Assembly: GCF_017357525.1 (NCBI RefSeq)
Contig: NZ_CP036172.1
Location: 2,578,561 to 2,642,560 of the forward strand
Direction of reading: 5' to 3'
Origin: Methanofollis aquaemaris
GTDB taxonomy: Archaea; Halobacteriota; Methanomicrobia; Methanomicrobiales; Methanofollaceae
DNA length: 64,000 nt
Shown: positions 34,855 through 38,352 of the stretch, in pieces
How the letters are laid out: every line of letters starts with the position of its first letter
How positions within the stretch are numbered: the stretch's first letter is position 1
Notes under the pieces: model-generated
Seen by the model: the letters and a program-made list of their open reading frames with translations, nothing else
Database searches by the model: none
Told to the model about the DNA's origin: nothing
Made by a program: the position numbers and the translations under genes

Positions 34855-34942
34855 TGAGTGAAAGAATCCTGTTCATGCTGTATATCCCCTGAAAAAGCAG
34901 AAACGAATCTACTTATACGCTCAGGGGAAAGAAAACACATTT

Positions 34943-35302
34943 ATGAAGAAAGACGCCGTAGACGCATCTGTCAATATACGGGACGGGTGGGCCGTTGTCT
35001 CGGTCGCCGGGCGGATCGACGCAGGTTCGGCCGGCACCCTCCAGGAAACGCTCACGCCGCTCATTGATGAGGGCCAGAAAAGAATTGTCATCGATATGGC
35101 CGGGCTTGATTATATCAGCAGTTCTGGCCTTCGGGTGCTGCTGGGCGCCCGCAAGGCTCTCCAGAAGCAGGGAGGGTCCGTCGCCCTCGCCGCCCTCACC
35201 CCCTTCGTCCATGAAGTCTTTGAGATCTCAGGCTTTCTCAGGATCTTTTCGGTCTATGAGAATGTCGAAGGGGCGATGGACGCGCAGGGACAGACCGGAT
35301 GA
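34943..35302 (+). CDS. STAS-domain anti-sigma-factor-antagonist-like protein
   Basis: 119 aa. It is a single STAS domain like SpoIIAA/RsbV (VVSVAGRIDAGSAGTLQETL; IDMAGLDYISSSGLRVLLGA). The phosphorylatable serine aligns with Ser60 in YISSSG. It overlaps the phosphatase gene by ATGA, which couples their translation. In bacteria such proteins are released by the phosphatase and bind the RsbW-type kinase. The target in archaea is unknown, because they have no sigma factors. Confidence 0.92.
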   Translation: MKKDAVDASVNIRDGWAVVSVAGRIDAGSAGTLQETLTPLIDEGQKRIVIDMAGLDYISSSGLRVLLGARKALQKQGGSVALAALTPFVHEVFEISGFLRIFSVYENVEGAMDAQGQTG

Positions 35303-36669
35303 TGCCGCAGGTCGGGGACTTTCTCGTCCTCTTCGAAATGATCTGCGTCATCGTCGTCGCAGCGTATTTCATCACCAGAACCCGGACCTTCACCGATGCC
35401 CTTGAGCAGCGGCTCACCCCGAAGGGTTCGGCCGCCCTCATCCTCTTCTTCGGCGCCCTCTCTATCTACGGCACCTTGAGCGGCGTCGAGGTGCTCGGCG
35501 CACCGATCAATGTCAGGGATCTCGGGCCGATGGTTGCGGGGGTCTTTTGCGGGCCTCTCGTCGGGATCGGGGCCGGGCTGATCGGCGGCGGGTTCAGGTT
35601 CGGGATGGGCGGGTTCACCGCAGTCCCGTGCGCCGTCTCCACCGTGCTCGCCGGCCTCCTTGGGGGCGTCGTCTACCTGCTCCTCCATCGCGGCGACCTG
35701 CAGGTGCCTGAGGTGAAGACCGTCGTCGGGTTTGCCGTCGGGATGGAGGTGCTGCACATGGGGGTTGTCCTCCTCGGCTGCTCGCCCTTCGAGGAGGCCT
35801 GGGCACTGGTGAGCCAGGTCTCGGTCCCGATGATCCTGGCCAACGCGACCGGGATGTTTGTCTTCGCCTTCATCATCACCAACCTTGTCACCGAACGACG
35901 GACACAGACCGAACGCGACGCCTACCAGGAAGAACTCAGGGTGAAGAAGGCCGAGTTGAAGGTCGCCGCCGAGATCCAGCAGACCTTCCTCCCGAGGAGC
36001 ATCCCGACGATGCAGGGCTTCGACCTGGCCGCGGTGAGTTGCCCGGCCCGCGAGGTGGGCGGCGACTTCTACGACGCCATCCGTCTTCAGGAGGGGAAGA
36101 CCGGGCTGGTCATCGCAGACGTCTCAGGCAAGAGCGTGCCGGCGGCGATCTACATGGCTCTCTCCAGGACGATCGTCAGGGCGATGGCGGCCCGGCATCC
36201 TGACGTCACCCTCGCCCTGGAGGACGCGAACTCGATGCTCATCGAGGAGTCGGACACCGGGATGTTCGTCACCCTCTTCTATGGCGTCCTCGACGAGGAG
36301 ACGCGGCTCCTCACCTATGCCAATGCCGGTCACAATCCCCCGCTCCTCCTCAGGAACGGCACCGACGAGTTCGTGTTCCTGGCCCCGACCGGGGTGGCGC
36401 TCGGCGCCGCGGAGGATATGGAGTACGGCGCCGGTGAGGTAAGGCTTGGGACCGGCGACCTCCTGGTGCTCTTCACTGATGGGGTGACCGAGGCCTTCAG
36501 CCCTGAGGGCGAGGTGTTCGGAAACGGGCGTCTGGAGGAGACGGTGCTGGCCGCCAGGACGCTCCCGGCTGCGGCGATGATCCGGGAGATCCGGGACGCG
36601 GTCCGGGCCTTTGCCGGCGAAGGGCCGCAGGATGACGACATCACGGTGATGGTGCTGAAGGGGGAGTGA
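35299..36669 (+). CDS. SpoIIE/RsbU-type serine phosphatase with membrane sensor domain
   Basis: 456 aa. Residues 1-200 carry about five membrane helices with NVRDLGPMVAGVFCGPLVGI and GFRFGMGGFTAVPCAVSTVL, as in the 5TMR-LYT sensor domain. A short coiled stretch (QEELRVKKAELKVAAEIQQT) leads to the PP2C-type SpoIIE domain (about 235-456). Its metal ligands lie in GGDFYDAI and in the final DDDITVMVLKG; LFTDGVTEAF is also typical. It dephosphorylates STAS proteins in response to a membrane signal. It is coupled to the upstream STAS gene and followed 2 nt later by the kinase gene. Confidence 0.92.
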   Translation: MMPQVGDFLVLFEMICVIVVAAYFITRTRTFTDALEQRLTPKGSAALILFFGALSIYGTLSGVEVLGAPINVRDLGPMVAGVFCGPLVGIGAGLIGGGFRFGMGGFTAVPCAVSTVLAGLLGGVVYLLLHRGDLQVPEVKTVVGFAVGMEVLHMGVVLLGCSPFEEAWALVSQVSVPMILANATGMFVFAFIITNLVTERRTQTERDAYQEELRVKKAELKVAAEIQQTFLPRSIPTMQGFDLAAVSCPAREVGGDFYDAIRLQEGKTGLVIADVSGKSVPAAIYMALSRTIVRAMAARHPDVTLALEDANSMLIEESDTGMFVTLFYGVLDEETRLLTYANAGHNPPLLLRNGTDEFVFLAPTGVALGAAEDMEYGAGEVRLGTGDLLVLFTDGVTEAFSPEGEVFGNGRLEETVLAARTLPAAAMIREIRDAVRAFAGEGPQDDDITVMVLKGE

Positions 36670-36671
36670 GC

Positions 36672-37076
36672 ATGGCCGGAGGCATCACCGTCAGTGCAGA
36701 GTTGTCGTCCCTTCCCGGGGTGCTGGCTTACATCACCGACGCCCTCCGGGCCCTCGGCCTCTCCCCGAAGGCAGTGCAGGAGATGGAACTTGCCGTCGAC
36801 GAGGCGGTGACGAACATCGTCCTCCACGGCTATGACGGGACAGAGGGGTGGGTCAGACTTTCGTGCGAGCGGGCCGGCGAGGGTGCGGTGGTGGTGATCG
36901 AAGATGCAGCCCCCCCCTTCGATCCGACCGCCGCCCCTTCACCTGAACTGGAGGGAGACGCGGACGAGCGGCCGATCGGCGGGCTCGGCGTCCATTTTAT
37001 CCGCACGATGACCGATGAGATGATATATGAATACCGGGATGGAATAAACGTCCTGAAACTTCTAAAAAGCGTCTGA
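36672..37076 (+). CDS. RsbW/SpoIIAB-like serine kinase (HATPase)
   Basis: 134 aa. GHKL ATPase fold: N-box MELAVDEAVTNIVLHGYDG, G1 VIEDAAPPFDPTAAP, G2 region IGGLGVHFIRTMTDEMIYEY. It would phosphorylate a STAS partner and bind an unknown target. It starts at the ATG at 36672, 2 nt after the phosphatase stop. With the genes on both sides it completes a partner-switching set. Confidence 0.92.
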   Translation: MAGGITVSAELSSLPGVLAYITDALRALGLSPKAVQEMELAVDEAVTNIVLHGYDGTEGWVRLSCERAGEGAVVVIEDAAPPFDPTAAPSPELEGDADERPIGGLGVHFIRTMTDEMIYEYRDGINVLKLLKSV

Positions 37077-37086
37077 GGAGAGAGAG

Positions 37087-38352
37087 ATGGAGATGAGATC
37101 CGAACGTGAGGACGCCCTCCTCACCGTCATGGTGAACGGGCGGCTTGATGGATATGCGGCTGAAGAACTGAAGGCAGGGATCGACGGCGCCCTGCAGGAC
37201 GACGACCGGGCGGTGGTCGTCGACCTTGCCGGGACAGATTACCTGAGCAGCGCCGGGATCCGGGTCTTCCTCGCCCTCCAGAAGCAGATGAAGGCGCGGG
37301 GAGGGTGTATGGCCCTCTGCAACGTGGAAAAATACCCGATGGAGGTGCTCTCGATGGCCGGGTTCGACCGCGTCTTCTCGATTGTCCCATCGCGGGAGGA
37401 GGCGAGGAGGATGTGTCTGCGCAAGGAGGACACGCTCTCGCTCATCGCCGACCTGGAACAGCCTGCGGATGAAATCGACGGGATGAAGTTCAGGTTCGAA
37501 CCTGGCACGCGTGCGGCCGCCCATCTCAGGATGCACGGCGACCTCGACACCCTCCTCCATGCCCGCCTCACCCGCGAGGGGGTGCGGGCCGTCCCGCTCT
37601 CCGAACTGGGATATGCCCTCGGGATCGGGGCGCTCGGCGGCAGCAGAGACGAGGCGGTCGGGCACCTCGGGGAGATGGTCTCCCTGCGCGGGGCGATGGC
37701 CTGGCTGCCGACCGACGGCCACGGTGCCCCTGACTTCCTGGTGCCGGCGACCCCCGGCGGCGGAGAAGGAGCGGCGTACACCGCCTTCGACCTGGCGCTC
37801 GACGGGTCGTTCCATGAGGTGGCGGTCGTCGAGGCGGGTTCTGAGGAGGGCTTCACCCTTGAGGCGCTGTACCGCGCGCTCCTCGCCCTGGCGCAGAGGC
37901 GCCGGTCCGAGTTTAGAGGGGTCGTTGCGACCGCCCTCTGGGGCGTGACCACCGGCGTGGCCGGCGCGGCGATGACGCGGGTGCCGTTCGCGGAGGAGGG
38001 ACTCGGCCCCGACGAGACTGATCGATGGGTCGAGCGGCGAGAAGGCCTGCGGCATGGCGGCGACACCCTCCTCTCCTTCGGGATCGCGGTCGACCGTGCC
38101 ACGGGTCCGGGGGAGATCGCCGCCCTCTGCCCGCCCCTCCCTGGCGAACCGGAAGAAGAAGGCCTCTGCTATCATGCCCATGGGGCAGTCTTCAGGCACG
38201 TCCCCTGGGACCAGAGCGCCAGCCTGGAAAAAGGGATCGACCGGTGTTTTGCCGACGGGGAAGTCGTGGACGTCTGCCACCTCCTGGGCTCGACGCGGCT
38301 GCGGCGGGCAAAGGTGGGGGTGGCGTACATCACCCCGGTCATGCAGGCGTGA
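37087..38352 (+). CDS. STAS domain fused to a large uncharacterised domain
   Basis: 421 aa. Residues 1-110 form a second STAS domain (MVNGRLDGYAAEELKAGIDG; VVDLAGTDYLSSAGIRVFLA), with Ser54/Ser55 as likely phosphosites. Residues about 115-421 form a domain that I cannot assign. It has a FALE-like first part (DEIDGMKFRFEPGTRAAAHL), a Ser/His/Gly-rich middle (WGVTTGVAGAAMTRVPFAEE) and LCYHAHGAVFRHVPWDQSAS. There is no membrane segment. The fusion may act as the output of the module. The gene is 10 nt after the kinase gene. Confidence 0.85.
   Translation: MEMRSEREDALLTVMVNGRLDGYAAEELKAGIDGALQDDDRAVVVDLAGTDYLSSAGIRVFLALQKQMKARGGCMALCNVEKYPMEVLSMAGFDRVFSIVPSREEARRMCLRKEDTLSLIADLEQPADEIDGMKFRFEPGTRAAAHLRMHGDLDTLLHARLTREGVRAVPLSELGYALGIGALGGSRDEAVGHLGEMVSLRGAMAWLPTDGHGAPDFLVPATPGGGEGAAYTAFDLALDGSFHEVAVVEAGSEEGFTLEALYRALLALAQRRRSEFRGVVATALWGVTTGVAGAAMTRVPFAEEGLGPDETDRWVERREGLRHGGDTLLSFGIAVDRATGPGEIAALCPPLPGEPEEEGLCYHAHGAVFRHVPWDQSASLEKGIDRCFADGEVVDVCHLLGSTRLRRAKVGVAYITPVMQA

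Follow-up and report, generated by a model that had tools for sequence, protein, structure and literature searches.

The putative partner-switching locus and its catalytic core

The window, a 64,000-nucleotide stretch of the Methanofollis aquaemaris genome (contig NZ_CP036172.1, positions 2,578,561 to 2,642,560), contains four open reading frames at 34943-38352. They encode a STAS protein (STAS1), a membrane phosphatase with a 5TMR_LYT sensor and a SpoIIE catalytic domain, an RsbW-like kinase, and a second STAS protein fused to a C-terminal domain of about 300 amino acids (aa), which we call X (Table 1). An initial annotation had recognized in these genes the parts of a bacterial-style partner switch, and Pfam matches bear out this parts list, with all four proteins scoring well above the curated cut-offs. 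The operon is as tightly packed as had been described: genes 1 and 2 overlap by 4 nucleotides (nt), as do genes 2 and 3, and the last gap is 10 nt. The operon is preceded by an 88-nt gap, and 228 nt separate it from a neighbouring AI-2E-type transporter gene. The host genome is complete in a single contig of 2.75 Mb, and the relatives of the module are Methanomicrobiales. Because the same four-gene order is kept in the mapped close relatives (L086 and L088-L093; also L087, apart from its uncalled first gene), the arrangement is not due to chance.

Table 1. Positions of the genes, domains and predicted functional residues, in window coordinates.
Feature	Position	Strand	Support
Putative archaeal TATA box CTTATA; leaderless start possible	34912..34917	+	~25 nt before first ATG, in 88-nt gap
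STAS1, stand-alone anti-anti-factor-like protein, 119 aa	34943..35302	+	PF01740 8.4e-26; TIGR00377 4e-26
Ser60, predicted phospho-acceptor of STAS1	35120..35122	+	S in 121/122 aligned STAS domains
5TMR_LYT-SpoIIE membrane phosphatase, 456 aa	35299..36669	+	PF07694 1.8e-44; PF07228 5.4e-53
5TMR_LYT sensor domain (aa 31-195)	35389..35883	+	PF07694 1.8e-44
Predicted pyruvate-site signature: R73 (35515-35517), R100 (35596-35598), C111 (35629-35631), S114 (35638-35640)	35515..35640	+	BtsS spacing
SpoIIE/PP2C catalytic domain (aa 265-454)	36091..36660	+	PF07228; first metal Asp (256, 259) just upstream
RsbW/SpoIIAB-like serine kinase, 136 aa, GTG start	36666..37076	+	PF13581 (HATPase_c_2) 5.7e-28; RsbW chain 6m36_A 5.5e-5
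STAS-X fusion, 421 aa (STAS + acetolactate-decarboxylase-like domain)	37087..38352	+	Open reading frame, Pfam, AlphaFold model and Foldseek
STAS domain of fusion	37102..37404	+	PF01740 5.7e-17; model matches SpoIIAA/RsbV chains, root-mean-square deviation about 1.5-2
Ser55, predicted phospho-acceptor of fusion	37249..37251	+	S in 135/136 aligned domains
X domain, 309 aa as modelled, predicted decarboxylase-like fold	37423..38349	+	AlphaFold2 pLDDT 88.4, pTM 0.89; Foldseek 1xv2 2.4e-8, 4bt3 1.0e-7, 1xcr 2.7e-7
E196 of GEM motif, aligned with acetolactate decarboxylase DGEM	37672..37674	+	40/40 family members
H363-A-H365, HxH predicted metal ligands	38173..38181	+	H in 39/40 at each position
H398 of HLLG (HLLD in most relatives), predicted third metal ligand	38278..38280	+	39/40

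Judged by sequence, the kinase, the phosphatase and the STAS substrates of the module have intact motifs. In the kinase, the N-box residues E46 and N50, the G1 residue D80 and the G2 glycines G105, G106 and G108 were invariant among 42 orthologues. The metal-binding aspartates D256, D274, D394, D446 and D447 of the phosphatase were likewise invariant among 30 orthologues, and D259 was present in 29 of the 30. Loss of the N-box or the metal ligands, which the initial annotation had named as the sign to look for against its reading, is not seen in this module. We take Ser60 of STAS1 and Ser55 of the fusion to align with SpoIIAA Ser58. The solved kinase nearest in sequence was Bacillus subtilis RsbW, and none of the four proteins reached the sigma-specific equivalog cut-offs of NCBIfam (RsbW, SpoIIAB, SpoIIAA, SpoIIE).

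The genome offers few other partners for these proteins. Its only SpoIIE domain is that of the module phosphatase, and its only close HATPase_c_2 kinase (1e-27) is followed by far weaker matches in frames of 400-1000 aa. Three STAS matches were found, namely STAS1, STAS-X and one in a 487-aa frame, which is taken, by its length, to be a transporter. With one SpoIIE domain, one top kinase and two non-transporter STAS proteins, the module partners are therefore unambiguous.

Bacteria often use such phosphorylation switches to control sigma factors, and archaea, to our knowledge, lack them. A search of the complete genome with the Sigma70_r2 profile gave one sub-threshold match of 12 bits and none above the cut-off. 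Within the reach of this profile, a sigma-factor target is excluded, in agreement with the initial claim that the output must be something else. A partner switch also requires a target that is sequestered by the kinase. None is proven here, and the description of the module as 'complete' therefore went too far; its best candidate for a sequestered target appears to be STAS-X.

Predicted input and output domains

Escherichia coli BtsS binds pyruvate via Arg72, Arg99, Cys110 and Ser113 (PMC10653868). The phosphatase belongs to the same family of membrane sensors as BtsS and LytS, and its residues R73, R100, C111 and S114 have identical spacing. Among 25 orthologous sensors, R-R-C was present at the BtsS spacing in every case and the full R-R-C-S in nine, M. 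aquaemaris included. Our best guess, predicted from this signature, is that the ligand is pyruvate or a similar carboxylate. Unlike in BtsS and LytS, the output of the archaeal sensor is a PP2C phosphatase rather than a histidine kinase; fusions of 5TMR sensors to SpoIIE have already been recorded as prevalent, mainly in archaea (PMC11109136).

At the other end of the pathway, Pfam and NCBIfam searches with X matched no family, and a sequence profile of X run against the PDB returned nothing relevant. AlphaFold2 modelled both the full STAS-X (predicted local distance difference test, pLDDT, 88.8) and X alone (pLDDT 88.4; predicted template modelling score, pTM, 0.89) with confidence. When X alone was compared with the PDB by Foldseek, all 13 matches below 1e-3 were acetolactate decarboxylases, a similar Staphylococcus aureus protein, or human PTD012. 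These matches had E-values of 2.4e-8 to 1.4e-5, with template modelling (TM) scores of about 0.5 for the query and 0.45-0.70 for the target, and the STAS half of the fusion model matched SpoIIAA and RsbV chains. In the two models, X resembles members of the acetolactate decarboxylase/PTD012 fold superfamily. PTD012 (C11orf54) is a decarboxylase in which three conserved histidines hold a zinc ion, and it is structurally related to acetolactate decarboxylase (PMC12435205).

Motifs lined up by eye point in the same direction. The motif GLG..(L/M)GEM..(L/I).G of X was paired with G(I/L)GTFD.LDGEM..LDG of the true enzymes, LHNH with YHLH, and RHLLD with GGHLLD. From the positions of these motifs along the sequence, X would have a metal site in which the HxH pair and the third histidine map to the zinc ligands of the known proteins (PMC12435205). 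E196, H363, H365 and H398 were all kept together in 38 of 40 family members. X nevertheless differs from acetolactate decarboxylase and PTD012 in its size of about 300 aa, in an insertion between the second and third histidines, and in the attached STAS domain.

STAS-X-type proteins of about 780-860 aa that carry an added TCAD9/APH-like kinase domain (L073, L074, L075, L076, L079, L080, L157 and L160) occur in Methanomicrobiales and in other archaea. The predicted metal quartet is lost or broken in four aligned TCAD9-fused paralogues.

Distribution of the module and of X

We counted module genes in 199 genomes of the order Methanomicrobiales and in 393 sampled genomes of the phylum. Kinase relatives were found in 122 of the 199 order genomes (about 60%), and STAS-X matches, STAS-only ones included, also in 122. 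When STAS-X matches were accepted at E-values of 1e-30 or less and kinase matches at 1e-9 or less, 85 order genomes had both X and the kinase, 4 had X alone, 34 had the kinase alone and 76 had neither; the four with X alone are assemblies 79-89% complete. In the phylum sample, 82 genomes carried SpoIIE and 46 carried X; 45 of the X-bearing genomes also had SpoIIE, the sole exception being a 270-contig assembly. Archaeal X almost never occurs without the kinase or the phosphatase, and in this genomic sense it depends on the switch.

The genes are contiguous in close relatives; in other families, X may be divergently adjacent to the module or unlinked. Among the conserved neighbours of unlinked STAS-X genes, chiefly module genes recur across families, and the others look lineage-specific. 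When bacterial and archaeal genomes were searched with X by itself, it also turned up in Bacillota, Verrucomicrobiota, Lentisphaerota, Kiritimatiellota and Sumerlaeota. Genes of the module lie close to it in Syntrophothermus, Peptococcaceae, Opitutales and Dethiobacter. In the complete X-bearing genes that we saw, X was attached to a STAS domain. In Dethiobacter, the sensor, phosphatase and kinase form one triple fusion of 620 aa directly downstream of STAS-X.

The module is thus no oddity of one archaeon: kinase relatives are common in the order, and linked modules are found in Bacillota and Verrucomicrobiota. The outline of that annotation stands, and the system is both more widely spread and more specific than it claimed. 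In a tree of X, archaea and bacteria are well clustered, and Methanolliviera and related archaeal rows group on the bacterial side, which is consistent with inter-domain transfer in either direction. One further apparent bacterial module (L158, on a contig labelled Chloroflexota) was discounted, as its X groups with Methanolliviera and the contig is possibly a mis-binned archaeal one.

A proposed carboxylate-sensing switch and its alternatives

We propose that the locus encodes a partner switch that senses a carboxylate and works without a sigma factor, its output being a decarboxylase-like metalloprotein tethered to STAS; we hold this reading of the sequences and models to be about evenly balanced between right and wrong. 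The kinase would bind both STAS1 and the fusion's STAS domain, phosphorylating Ser60 and Ser55. The LytS-type pocket of the phosphatase would read a small carboxylate on the extracytoplasmic side, with pyruvate or a closely related compound the likeliest ligand, and the ligand-reading phosphatase would strip the phosphates from the STAS domains. Occupancy of the kinase by STAS1 would then set whether STAS-X is held or free. The output would be the X domain, which would bind a metal within its acetolactate-decarboxylase/PTD012 fold and act on, or bind, a keto acid such as acetolactate. Acetolactate is made from pyruvate. In this scheme we infer phosphotransfer, kinase-STAS binding, the identity of the ligand, the metal, catalysis and the direction of the switch. 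A narrower version, in which external pyruvate controls, by way of STAS phosphorylation, a keto-acid decarboxylase-fold enzyme on the same chain, with no transcription factor, in methanogens and in some bacteria, we regard as doubtful. What is new relative to the initial annotation is the decarboxylase-like metalloprotein domain predicted in the fusion and the pyruvate-site signature in the sensor, which supply hypotheses for the output and the input.

Several observations weigh against this proposal. The relation of X to the decarboxylases is one of fold, seen in a predicted structure and in motifs. Against decarboxylase-type chains X reaches TM-scores of about 0.5 by query and 0.65 by target, the PF03306 profile finds no match on STAS-X, and an hhalign comparison with true enzymes was insignificant (probability 3.7%), so X was rejected as an acetolactate decarboxylase by sequence. 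The signature serine is replaced by alanine in 16 of the 25 sensors, and the co-occurrence figures are raw genome counts that ignore shared descent. In the X tree, M. aquaemaris X sits on a long branch with its nearest relative (G027) and has an atypical composition. The STAS-X of the sister genome G015 (L087:9167-10354) has an internal deletion in X; H398 is replaced by Arg and the HxH is disturbed, its first His probably lost. These changes in G015 are a sign of decay or of changed function. Even if catalysis by X is ancestral, in this clade it may be dispensable or subject to relaxed selection.

The long branch (with sister L086), the deletion and histidine loss in G015, and a cysteine (Cys397) in M. 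aquaemaris where the MRHLLD motif normally has Arg, beside H398, would also fit a module that is degenerating in this lineage and contributes little. We consider this very improbable, given that the catalytic residues of kinase and phosphatase are all intact, the frames are open and overlapping, the two nearest species have kinases 81-89% identical to this one, and M. aquaemaris X still keeps its E/H/H/H quartet. That quartet also favours the decarboxylase branch over a very improbable reading in which X is a nucleic-acid or protein binding module of PPC/DUF296-like halves and STAS-X a DNA-targeting effector. The next Foldseek match after the decarboxylases was indeed a putative DNA-binding protein, 3htn (E 2.5e-3, prob 1.00), presumably of the PPC kind, and 2h6l (AF0104) was matched more weakly still; but the 3htn match is far weaker than those to the decarboxylases and covers about half of X.

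A possible, though not a probable, alternative is that STAS-X is an input, in which X binds a metabolite and gates the engagement of STAS with the kinase, and the kinase sequesters some other archaeal transcription or motility factor. Classical switches do sequester a regulator, and the TCAD9-fused paralogues are retained despite their lost quartet, as expected if X had a ligand-binding or scaffold role. Moreover, the 34 kinase-positive order genomes without X, which also count against our proposal, have a switch that must act on another target at least there; X therefore cannot be the sole output, and other targets exist somewhere. Yet the conserved genes around the module include no candidate regulator, the one further STAS-bearing gene found in M. 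aquaemaris is of transporter length, and the active-site-like residues of X are strongly conserved across bacteria and archaea.

A sigma-free switch with X as its output would have partial counterparts among known systems. It shares with RsbU/RsbV/RsbW and SpoIIE/SpoIIAA/SpoIIAB of Bacillus the three core domains, the N-box E and N, the STAS phospho-serine and the SpoIIE metal residues. It differs from them in the archaeal genome without a sigma factor, the LytS-type membrane sensor on the phosphatase, and the second STAS protein with a decarboxylase-like domain. The SiaABC(D) system of Pseudomonas aeruginosa is a non-sigma partner switch that reads carbon availability (PMC7647112, PMC8457831). 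It likewise combines a membrane PP2C phosphatase, a kinase, a STAS-like target and a metabolic input, and it acts on an effector protein, the diguanylate cyclase SiaD, instead of a sigma factor. Its sensor differs, however, and SiaC binds SiaD as an enzyme in its own right, whereas in the archaeal module STAS and the effector-like domain share one chain. The Chlamydia RsbU/RsbW/RsbV1/RsbV2 system, for which responses to alpha-ketoglutarate and phosphoenolpyruvate have been reported, also has a metabolite-sensing membrane phosphatase, one kinase and two STAS substrates, but its kinase binds sigma66 and it has no fused effector (PMC11619594). In a literature search limited to open-licence papers, we found none on archaeal partner switching.

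The locus bears on the role of RsbW-like kinases and STAS proteins in sigma-less archaea, and it offers a bounded candidate answer. A single operon in a small genome holds one kinase, a phosphatase with a defined ligand-site signature, two serines predicted to accept phosphate and a single candidate effector domain, which makes both the input and the output of the pathway testable. Neither Pfam nor NCBIfam has a curated family for the X domain of the STAS-X family, found across methanogens, Bacillota and Verrucomicrobiota. Should X turn out to be an enzyme, partner switching would extend from regulators to direct metabolic control.

Other proteins were found beside module genes elsewhere. In Methanoregulaceae, a metallo-beta-lactamase-fold protein of 560-600 aa lies beside the module STAS1; in G145 it is fused to a C-terminal STAS domain, and M. 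aquaemaris has an unlinked homologue (L083:4942-7026, L180:2844-4643, L202:5774-7570 and G000:C1:821134-822666 for the set). This protein is a candidate second effector. In genus g16, the kinase domain forms the C-terminus of proteins of 800-1000 aa with Cthe_2159 or DUF2225 matches (L081:6256-8664, L082:769-3840), and STAS and SpoIIE genes lie alongside. In family f6 (L196-L200), the kinase gene (or STAS1-kinase gene) has a true acetolactate decarboxylase gene as its divergent neighbour; this adjacency is confined to one genus, thus a single event, and was not counted as evidence. A genuine acetolactate decarboxylase is also encoded in M. aquaemaris (G000:C1:1625520-1626173, L203; PF03306 2.5e-77) and in most genomes of the order.

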